Source: an uncultured bacterium
GTDB lineage: Bacteria > Cyanobacteriota > Vampirovibrionia > Gastranaerophilales > Gastranaerophilaceae
Direction: 5' to 3'
Assembly: GCA_949290355.1 (NCBI GenBank)
Contig: CASERN010000008.1
Span: 62,001-126,000 of the forward strand
DNA: 64,000 nucleotides
Shown: positions 55,535-57,352 of the stretch, one piece after another
Layout of the letters: the number at the start of each line of letters is the position of its first letter
How positions within the stretch are numbered: the first letter of the stretch is position 1
The notes under the pieces: model-generated
What the model was told of the DNA's origin: nothing
Database searches by the model: none
Seen by the model: only the letters and a program-made list of their open reading frames with translations
Translations under genes and position numbers: made by a program

Positions 55535-55564
55535 TTGACGTTTTTTGCAAACGTATGGTATAAT
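55535..55564 (+). promoter_or_regulatory. Strong promoter of the tail-fibre cassette
   Basis: TTGACG (55535-55540), an 18-base spacer and extended -10 TGG-TATAAT (55556-55564) give a strong match. It drives the gene at 55627, with a leader of about 55 bases carrying AGAAAGGG. Confidence 0.7.
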
Positions 55565-55626
55565 TAATTATTCAAACGCCTTTTTAAATAATACATAATC
55601 ATTAAATTAGTCAGAAAGGGAAAATT

Positions 55627-56304
55627 ATGGCTAATTCAATGATACCTTATTCATTTATCCCAGGCACAAAAGCAAAAGCAAGTGAGATAAATGCTAATTT
55701 TGCATCATTAGCTGAGTATATAGAAAACAATAAAAGCTCTGCAACATCTGATATTGAAAAAGTTAATGAGACTTTAAAAACCAAAGCTGATAAAACTGAG
55801 CTTATCACAGAATTTGATGTAACAGATGCCGATACAGACCTCAATGATTACAAAACTAAAGGAACATATATTTTCAAATCTTTATACACTCCTGAAAATG
55901 CTCCAAAAGGAGAGGCAGGAATACTTATAGTTACAGGGCTTGAAAATTCTGTTATAAAACAAATATGGTACACCGATGAAGAAAACCCTGAAATATATAC
56001 AAGGAATTATAAAGATAGTACTTGGGGCGAATGGCAATCATATATCGGGAAATACGACTTAAAAGATGTCGGGTACTTAAAATTACAAAATGGACTTATA
56101 ATTCAGTGGGGGATGCACACAATTGCAACAGTAGTATATCCAATAGCATATTCTACAGTTGCAGCTCCTGTACTTATGAAACACGGTTATAACCCTGGTT
56201 TATCAAGAAGTGATAGCGGTTTTACCGACCAATCATTAACAGGATTTCAATTCGGAAGTTCTGGAGCATTTACAGACTTAAATTGGATAGCAATAGGTTA
56301 CTAA
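55627..56304 (+). CDS. Phage tail-fibre-like protein
   Basis: The 225-residue protein has a tail-fibre organisation: an N-terminal MIPYSFIPGTKAKASEINANF segment typical of fibre starts, a short coiled coil (about 30-60), a pyocin-knob-like middle with TWGEWQSYIGK, and a C-terminal tip-like domain with YLKLQNGLIIQWG and the closing WIAIGY. Such fibres bind surface receptors. The only phage-like neighbour is the gene below, so this could be a domesticated element, a moron or a tailocin part. AGAAAGGG precedes the ATG. Confidence 0.8.
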   Translation: MANSMIPYSFIPGTKAKASEINANFASLAEYIENNKSSATSDIEKVNETLKTKADKTELITEFDVTDADTDLNDYKTKGTYIFKSLYTPENAPKGEAGILIVTGLENSVIKQIWYTDEENPEIYTRNYKDSTWGEWQSYIGKYDLKDVGYLKLQNGLIIQWGMHTIATVVYPIAYSTVAAPVLMKHGYNPGLSRSDSGFTDQSLTGFQFGSSGAFTDLNWIAIGY

Positions 56305-56318
56305 GGAGATTTTGTATT

Positions 56319-56729
56319 ATGAAATATTTTGGAACAAAAAATAATAAAGATTATGGATTTTATGAAGAAAAATTTGATAATTCAATTGAAATAACAGATG
56401 AATACTGGGCAGAATTACTCAAAGAGCAAAGTAATGGTAAAATGATCATTTTATATGAAGGTAATGTAATCGCAGTAAATGAAATGGAGTACGAAAAGAA
56501 AAACGGAATTTGGGAAAAATTAACAAAGGAAAATGCTGAAATAAAACAATTAAACATACAAAATGCAATAAGAAAAAATGAAATTTTAGCAGAAATGGAA
56601 GAAATTGATAAAAAAAGAATCAGAGCACTTGCAGAACCTGTTTTAAAAGACGATGAAATAACATGGTTAGAATATTATAACAATCAAATTCAAACTCTTA
56701 GAAATGAATTAAATCAATTAAACACATAA
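56319..56729 (+). CDS. Tail-fibre-assembly-like protein
   Basis: The 136-residue protein starts MKYFGTKNNKDYGFYEEKFD. The ATG at 56319 has TAAGGAGA nine bases upstream and is preferred over an earlier in-frame start at 56283. It has the look of a fibre-assembly or chaperone partner: a small N-terminal domain with EYWAELLKEQSNGK, then a helical C-terminal half (NEILAEMEEIDKKRIRALAE). It follows the fibre gene by 14 bases with a terminator after it. The name rests mainly on context and pattern. Confidence 0.65.
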   Translation: MKYFGTKNNKDYGFYEEKFDNSIEITDEYWAELLKEQSNGKMIILYEGNVIAVNEMEYEKKNGIWEKLTKENAEIKQLNIQNAIRKNEILAEMEEIDKKRIRALAEPVLKDDEITWLEYYNNQIQTLRNELNQLNT

Positions 56730-56757
56730 AAAAACGGCTTTAAAAAGCCGTTTTTTT
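56728..56757. terminator. Bidirectional terminator
   Basis: A stem of 13 bp (AAAAAAACGGCTT and its complement) with a 4-base loop and T runs closes the fibre cassette and the convergent gene. Confidence 0.88.
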
Positions 56758-57308
56758 TAGTATACATCTAAATAACGATTCATAATATCTTGAATAAAGT
56801 TATTTACAAATTTAGCACCTTGTTTTACTTTACTTGAATCAAAAAAGAAATTAAGCAATTTTTGATCGGCCAAATAATCTGAACATTTAGTTCTATATAT
56901 CAAAACATGATTCGCAACACAATCTTTATAATAATTATCGACCTGCAAATCATCTTTGTTCATATTAGAAATTTTTCTTGTCATTTTGGCAATAAATGAA
57001 AACATCGGTAAAAATCTGTCTTCTTCATGAAGACAATTTCCATTTACATAAACTAAATTGCTTTTCGGAGTTTTAGAACAGGTTATATTCACAATATCAG
57101 ATGCAACATTATTATTATAATCTAATAAATCTTTTCCTATTTTTTTTACTACATTTCTGAATTCTGATAAATCCTTACCTTTTTTATCATCACTTAAAAC
57201 CATTGACAGACTGTAATTTCCAGACATCTTATTATTAACTTTTTTGCTATAAGTAATGAAGCCGACATTACTTATTCCTTTAAAATTTATTTGATCAATT
57301 TTATTCAT
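56757..57308 (-). CDS. INFKG-motif protein, unknown
   Basis: A 183-residue protein starting MNKIDQINFKGISNVGFITYS; a longer start 36 bases earlier is equally possible since neither has a good ribosome binding site. There is no signal peptide or membrane helix. The body is Lys/Asn-rich with conserved-looking aromatic residues (FRNVVKKIGKDLLDYN, FLPMFSFIAKMTRK). I do not recognise the family. It shares the short N-terminal motif with the genes at 30329 and 35954. It is divergent from tyrS. Confidence 0.55.
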   Translation of the reverse strand: MNKIDQINFKGISNVGFITYSKKVNNKMSGNYSLSMVLSDDKKGKDLSEFRNVVKKIGKDLLDYNNNVASDIVNITCSKTPKSNLVYVNGNCLHEEDRFLPMFSFIAKMTRKISNMNKDDLQVDNYYKDCVANHVLIYRTKCSDYLADQKLLNFFFDSSKVKQGAKFVNNFIQDIMNRYLDVY

Positions 57309-57343
57309 ATTATTATAAATTCTATAAAATATTTTTTTGCGCA

Positions 57344-57352
57344 TGCTATAAT
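57344..57352 (+). promoter_or_regulatory. Extended -10 of tyrS
   Basis: TGC-TATAAT sits 35 bases before the tyrS ATG; no -35 match is visible, as often when the extended element is perfect. Confidence 0.5.

Follow-up and report, generated by a model that had tools for sequence, protein, structure and literature searches.

A two-gene fibre cassette between acpS and tyrS as candidate receptor-binding locus of a podovirus-derived, GTA-like particle in Gastranaerophilales

Here, we describe a two-gene tail-fibre cassette in the window, i.e., the whole analysed stretch of 64,000 nucleotides, from a member of the Gastranaerophilaceae, which are non-photosynthetic relatives of cyanobacteria in animal guts. 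The fibre gene (55627-56304, plus strand, 225 aa) is followed on the same strand by the gene for a tail-fibre-assembly-type (Tfa-like) partner (tfa, 56319-56729, 136 aa). Upstream lie pheA and acpS; downstream lie a 195-aa ORF on the opposite strand (56757-57344, minus strand) without a Pfam match, and then tyrS. The family of this ORF evolves fast, with zero to two copies between tfa and tyrS across the genus, and is present in several other genera. A genus-conserved promoter of the form TTGACG-18-TATAAT, with TG before the second hexamer, is located at 55535-55564 (plus strand). It is followed by a 5' leader (55565-55626, plus strand), in which a conserved AT-rich element (55598-55619) runs into the ribosome-binding site. 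An intrinsic-terminator-like stem-loop after tfa (56728-56757, plus strand) also stands at the end of the convergent 195-aa ORF. A sequence-only reading of this DNA had placed a two-gene tail-fibre cassette with its own promoter and terminator between acpS and tyrS, and both ORFs are found there.

The promoter is the best-scoring of 18 promoter sites; shuffled sequence gives 19.6 sites, so the count by itself carries no meaning. Promoter and leader are conserved across 29 aligned genus loci (29 of 30, one near-duplicate being omitted), and a terminator comparable to that of the window follows tfa in 30 of 30 genus loci as judged by eye. The 22-mer of the leader, with up to three mismatches, has a single occurrence in each of 31 of the 33 genus genomes, and this always directly precedes the fibre gene; no further copies were found in the genus genomes, which leaves a regulon signal unsupported. 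Two other roles of the leader were considered and rejected. A structured riboregulator lacks support because the consensus fold is weak (-0.27 kcal/mol, four pairs, none changed on both sides), and the SD-pairing idea (GCCTT with AAGG) fails as the pairing is broken in two loci (L017 and L022).

The same reading had proposed a phage-type fibre with anchor, tip and assembly partner, which is borne out by profile matches. Fibre residues 152-225 match Pfam Gp53-like_C (PF21882; E 8e-9, above the cut-off), the fibre also matches several PHROG tail-fibre families, and the partner matches phrog_188 'tail fiber assembly protein' (E 5e-7), which places it in the Tfa family by sequence. The fibre comprises an anchor (residues 1-25), a helix (about 18-52), an R-pyocin-like knob (about 59-141) and a Gp53-like/R-pyocin-foot tip (about 143-225). 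Its AlphaFold model consists of a helix and two beta domains (mean pLDDT 80, residues 1-12 below 50), and R-pyocin fibres rank first when this model is used in Foldseek (E 8e-8 to 2e-6). VIA-align fitted residues 55/58-225 to the R1/R2 pyocin fibres (PDB 6cl5, 6ct8, 6cl6) with Z 11.2-11.6 and a whole-chain rmsd of 47, i.e., the fit holds domain by domain. Residues 59-141 also aligned with the receptor-binding proteins of P68, phi11 and Pa193 (Z 9-10), and residues 143-225 with the R1 pyocin foot (Z 7.9). By sequence profile, the tip matches the AP22 gp53 fibre entry 4mtm (1.4e-6) and the knob matches R2 pyocin (2.9e-4). The model of the Tfa-like protein (pLDDT 90) had no PDB match at E<=0.001.

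Conservation in the genus was surveyed in 58 genomes, i.e., the window's genome (G000) and 57 relatives. The full-length fibre is present as a single copy in 31 of the 33 genus genomes and in none of the 25 genomes outside the genus. Fibre and tfa stand together in all 30 genus loci read, with acpS upstream in 27. That 31 of the 33 genus genomes should have one copy, in the same surroundings, is more than chance would give. The two genomes from which the fibre is missing are each 89% complete; in one (G029) the usual tyrS was likewise not found, and in the other (G014) a different ORF occupies the expected tfa position near a contig end. In a further genome (G008, L015/L063), tfa has an in-frame TAG at codon 3 and the fibre is intact. 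No second fibre of the same kind was found in the window's genome by a profile search with E up to 10.

Of 383 genomes of the order, 152 carry a match to the anchor profile, in almost every case a single one; counted among good genomes the figure is 130 of 306, and 29 of 52 genera are represented. The anchor consensus MTNSxIPYSFxPGTKAKAxEVNANF has 12 invariant columns among 28 diverse rows. A fibre-profile scan of named genomes, from which the best 80 of 101 relatives were kept, yielded 30 full-length orthologues and 50 relatives mainly sharing the N-terminal 25-58 residues. The bodies and tips of these 50 anchor-only relatives (L130-L179) differ beyond the anchor, and 46 of their loci still have at least one gene of the same block (pgm, pheA, tyrS or cysE) in the stretch retrieved around them (exceptions: L132, L172, L173 and L179). 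When 76 fibres read to the stop codon were grouped by BLAST, the first 45 residues formed one group and the last 90 residues five. The same grouping of the 72 Tfa partners (a following ORF was obtained at 72 of the 76 fibre loci) resulted in nine groups for the first 60 residues and three for the last 55. Single-linkage grouping of the fibre bodies merged 67 of 76 and is not counted as evidence. Of 45 upstream regions from other genera, 38 have a TTGAC..TATAAT-like promoter (0.2 per shuffled set) and 35 a YCRGAAAGG leader (0.01 per shuffled set). The group counts and the upstream conservation thus indicate that promoter, leader, anchor and, mostly, the C-terminal half of Tfa stay, and that the block between them, i.e., fibre body, tip and Tfa N-terminus, is replaced; the anchor is mostly at the same locus where loci were read. 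The C-terminal motif of the window Tfa (P0002) also recurs in Tfa-like genes of Mu-like and other contractile prophages (L073-L077) in genus relatives and one other genus.

A phage-like particle encoded elsewhere had also been suspected in the sequence-only reading, and this check, run in the same genome, revealed a podovirus-like head, packaging and nozzle cluster. It lies outside the window on contig C6 (29935-39516), with all genes on one strand and labels based on PHROGs and Pfam. The order starts with a LuxR-type regulator, an amidase, the nozzle, the major head protein, two small ORFs and the adaptor, and continues with the small terminase, a 116-aa ORF, an acetyltransferase-like ORF, the portal, the large terminase and a holin-like ORF. 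Assignments are based on phrog_267 (1.6e-51) for the major head protein, PF04466 (6e-21) for TerL, PF03592 (3e-15) for TerS, PF01510 (2e-14) for the amidase, phrog_332 (2e-31) for the portal, which matches PF12236 below the Pfam cut-off, and SU10_adaptor (7e-5, below the Pfam cut-off) for the adaptor. The nozzle matches phrog_3287 (7e-19 for the G007 copy), a family labelled 'virion structural protein' in PHROGs, and owes its name to its position and NFSGG-type start; the holin-like ORF is labelled from size and look alone. Proteins p216 and p116 of the cluster had no telling PHROGs or Pfam match. A phrog_3287 search found one copy in 32 of 33 genus genomes, including the window's genome, and none in 14 control genomes. 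The portal profile matches in all 33 genus genomes and in 225 of 383 genomes of the order; four portals contain one stop codon (G019, G082, G235 and G363).

Where both sides were read, the cluster is flanked in the genus by fliI, zip and radical-SAM genes on one side and secA on the other; the cluster of G010 differs on the fliI side. Among the unmatched ORFs of at least 90 aa in 14 clusters, no integrase or replication gene was seen by eye. This and the flanks conserved in the genus led us to reject a complete temperate phage. A particle with an HK97-type portal (PF04860) was rejected as well, with this portal in one of 33 genus genomes and none in the window's genome, and so was a contractile tailocin or prophage partner, with sheath PF04984 in 5 and baseplate J PF04865 in 6 of 33 genus genomes. 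Both contractile-tail markers are absent from the window's genome, which disposes of the tailocin named in the sequence-only reading; moreover, this genome has head and terminase genes, which R-type pyocins lack.

Several genomes contain extra ORFs between portal and terL or beside terL, a cargo hotspot that is empty in the window's genome. These ORFs include a lipase-like protein (GHSEGG), DUF6973 (1.1e-13) and repeated small secreted-looking proteins (L304 2852-4080, L319 4803-6881, L324 13129-15223, L325 1541-3940, L308 4773-8588, L314 5243-5956). In most genera, the cluster is flanked by p123 (L298 17435-17806) and p583 (L299 7736-9487), which have no convincing Pfam match and may belong to it. 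The region before the LuxR gene (L298 17800-17935; counterparts in L300-L304, L316, L318, L319, L324 and L325) is strongly conserved without an evident sigma-70 promoter and may be a regulated start of the operon that encodes the particle. No strong promoter of the cassette type was found upstream of the LuxR gene. The housekeeping-looking promoter of the fibre and the different region before LuxR suggest that the two loci are separately controlled.

Cassette and cluster are linked by co-occurrence. Among 383 genomes of the order, 143 have both anchor and portal, 9 the anchor only, 82 the portal only and 149 neither (Fisher p 7e-34, in a test that ignores kinship). Within genus g22, both are absent from G079 and G089, both are present in G060, G076, G185, G255 and G373, and G341 has the portal only. 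In two genomes, the link is also physical. In G243 (genus g45), an anchor fibre (METNTHLIEFIPGAKAKASDVNFNF) and a following 128-aa ORF are located between amidase and nozzle of the homologous cluster, and in G037 an anchor fibre with a Gp53-like_C tip (1.3e-12) and a 138-aa ORF lie near nozzle and adaptor. The nozzle is missing in all five clusters examined from genus g28 (L309, L320-L323), and no anchor fibre was found in this genus: G074 and G098 scored without the anchor, and the other three genomes were absent from the match list. These g28 clusters keep head, portal and terminases, lack the nozzle, holin-like and acetyltransferase-like genes, and may represent decaying or re-purposed particles. 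On viral contigs, the anchor starts short fibres adjoining nozzle-type or internal-virion genes, i.e., podovirus-type tail genes (best 80 of 140 relatives kept, 19 contexts inspected, three without an ORF); these viral fibres are about 33-68% identical to the window's anchor motif over short stretches. One homologous cluster with a collar-domain fibre (L307, G039) is located 5-15 kb from pheA and pgm, which are neighbours of the cassette. From this layout, the cassette may mark an older site of the element.

Both loci are under purifying selection. For the pair G004/G026, omega from Nei-Gojobori counts was 0.030 for the head protein, 0.036 for the portal, 0.048 for the nozzle and 0.176 for p216, the maximum of the cluster, and 0.168 for the fibre and 0.075 for tfa; further pairs give a similar picture unless their synonymous sites were saturated or too few in number. 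The cassette is a host locus rather than a spare phage part. No other fibre of this kind was found in the genome, the cassette is a fixed feature of the genus, and purifying selection acts on it; the 'spare' adhesin of the sequence-only reading is hence abandoned. Nor do the fibre's phage-type domains belong to an ordinary cell-surface family without phage links, the outcome that this reading had named as speaking against it. Protein distances correlate between fibre and portal (r 0.80, n=10 genomes), and the distances of portal, nozzle and coat correlate with those of acpS (r 0.77-0.80, n=10; portal 0.77, nozzle 0.80); the correlation between portal and tyrS is weak (r 0.31, n=5). In a viral collection, portals of at least 66% identity sit on contigs 5-18 kb long whose genes are in the same order and which probably are the same chromosomal element; more distant portals follow at 54, 46, 44 and 32%, then at 27% identity and below.

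It is tempting to ask what the cassette does for the cluster, and we consider it probable that it encodes the receptor-binding fibre and the folding partner of a podovirus-like, GTA-like particle whose other genes are located on C6. Our best reading of these sequence data would be a family-wide, podovirus-derived GTA-like particle of the Gastranaerophilales with its receptor-binding protein at a locus of its own. Briefly, the invariant N-terminus of the fibre would dock the trimer on the short tail (nozzle/adaptor) of the C6-encoded particle, and the Tfa-like partner would fold the variable tip. The terminase might fill heads with pieces of host DNA, the amidase and the holin-like protein might release particles in some cells, and the released particles might then deliver DNA to other cells. 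Recipients would be picked by binding of the fibre tip to a surface glycan of sibling cells. Since anchor and tail are fixed and the tip and the N-terminal half of Tfa are exchanged, the locus would set which cells the particle recognises. We give roughly even odds to the wider proposal that Gastranaerophilaceae inherit a podovirus-derived GTA and that its target choice resides at a separate locus, where promoter, leader and anchor are constant and the tip and the matching chaperone half are replaced as one block. If true, the host could direct its own DNA-exchange particle at new targets and leave the particle itself unchanged, and the cassette would be a receptor-specificity locus of a domesticated virus.

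Alternatively, the same two-locus particle could kill, as a podovirus-like bacteriocin that packs host DNA without delivery, like PBSX, which is described as packing host DNA without delivering it. Sequence cannot separate delivery from killing, and the cargo ORFs that several genomes have between portal and terL, lipase-like ones among them, would fit a killer. The available text on FpGTA of Faecalibacterium (PMC12946183) likewise leaves the question of delivery or killing open for that element. However, a pure killer would hardly need the head, portal and both terminases that are under strong purifying selection, no killing module recurs in every cluster, and the hotspot of the window's genome is empty, which makes a killing particle unlikely. 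Less likely still is a domesticated adhesin or lectin that acts on its own, with no particle involved. The cassette's placement among housekeeping genes with a strong promoter of its own, and the 9 of 152 anchor-bearing genomes without a portal, are what such a protein might show, but the phage anchor, needless for a free lectin, is the most conserved part of the fibre, and both the co-occurrence with the cluster and the co-location in G243 and G037 argue for a particle.

We see very little room for a spare fibre serving the prophages or contractile tailocins of the genus, even though Mu-like prophages of relatives carry Tfa-like genes: sheath and baseplate J occur in 5 and 6 of 33 genus genomes and not in the window's genome, compared with 31 of 33 for the cassette, no second such fibre exists in the window's genome, and presence of the cassette does not correlate with such prophages. 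Similarly far-fetched is an anti-phage weapon, i.e., a cell-made fibre that infecting podoviruses would take up into their particles, so that their progeny are misdirected, or that would block receptors after lysis. This idea draws on the anchor motif shared with viral podovirus-type fibres (about 33-68% identity over short stretches), but an anchor that hardly varies across many genera points to a single inherited partner more than to a succession of phages, and a resident cluster with a fitting tail exists. A GTA-like particle with a separate fibre locus is the reading we carry forward, and it would also account for an orphan fibre that annotation would label prophage debris.

In the accessible part of Kogay et al. 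2022 (PMC9662315), six features of GTAs are given: tailed-phage-derived proteins that form tailed-phage-like particles, packaging of mostly random host DNA, an endogenised genome that often occupies several loci, an own genome that is not fully packable, vertical inheritance together with host co-diversification, and delivery of the packed DNA. Endogenisation at several loci was found here, with the cluster on contig C6, the cassette on contig C8 and no integrase or replication gene seen. As to tailed-phage-derived proteins, head, portal, terminases, adaptor and nozzle match phage families and are known from genes alone. Vertical inheritance is suggested by the portal in 33 of 33 genus genomes, the shared flanks (except in G010) and the correlations with acpS (r 0.77-0.80) and tyrS (r 0.31), which are based on distances, not trees. 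The element appears to resemble a GTA and, with one of the six features established, is classified as GTA-like. Among the matches listed from the GTA and tail-fibre literature, which was mostly open-access, none described a GTA from Gastranaerophilales or Melainabacteria.

Compared with known systems, the window fibre has knob and foot in common with R1/R2-type pyocin fibres; however, it is much shorter (225 aa) and has another N-terminal anchor, and no contractile tail genes were found in the window's genome. By portal, which matches 15 of 50,697 phage records, mostly phages of filamentous cyanobacteria, the nearest named phages are Cyanophage PP, Leptolyngbya phages and Arthronema TR020, which we take to be podoviruses of filamentous cyanobacteria; their portals are only about 20-23% identical, and the window fibre had no match in the same records. 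RcGTA is alphaproteobacterial and siphovirus-like, with the genes rcc00171 and rcc01080 outside its main cluster, whereas the present element is podovirus-like and from Gastranaerophilales; we know of no Tfa-type partner or tip-exchange locus for RcGTA. The RcGTA tail fibre (rcc00171) and head spike (rcc01080) bind cell polysaccharide and have rod, knob and foot parts related to R-pyocin fibres, according to the available text of PMC10218006. The window fibre shares with them a knob and foot akin to R-pyocin fibres.

The closest parallel in type is FpGTA, a podovirus-like GTA-like element that is near-ubiquitous in Faecalibacterium (Borodovich et al. 2026, PMC12946183). As described in the part of that article available, a compact operon encodes terminases, portal, scaffold and major capsid, and a second operon about 125 kb away encodes the tail fibre/RBP and lysis genes. 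The present element resembles it in its short-tailed-phage type, compact head operon, fibre at a second locus and near-ubiquity in the genus. In contrast to FpGTA, which belongs to one genus of Bacillota, it spans a family of Gastranaerophilales, its lysis genes are with the head genes instead of the fibre, and its fibre locus is cut down to two genes with exchanged tips. Particles of FpGTA have been seen, whereas the present element is known from genes alone, and the two are likened by description, not sequence. A word search of the article's available text found no mention of Gastranaerophilales, Melainabacteria or cyanobacteria. If our reading is true, a family-wide GTA-like element exists in a phylum for which the matches listed hold no report, podovirus-type GTAs arose or spread beyond Bacillota, and the Gastranaerophilales offer naturally occurring variants of a domesticated virus that differ in the receptor-binding part and are constant in the rest. 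This would open a direct way to study how GTAs select recipient cells and whether the tips vary with the surface glycans of host species. The kind of element is already known from the podovirus-like GTA of Faecalibacterium (2026); the lineage and the split tip-exchange locus look new.
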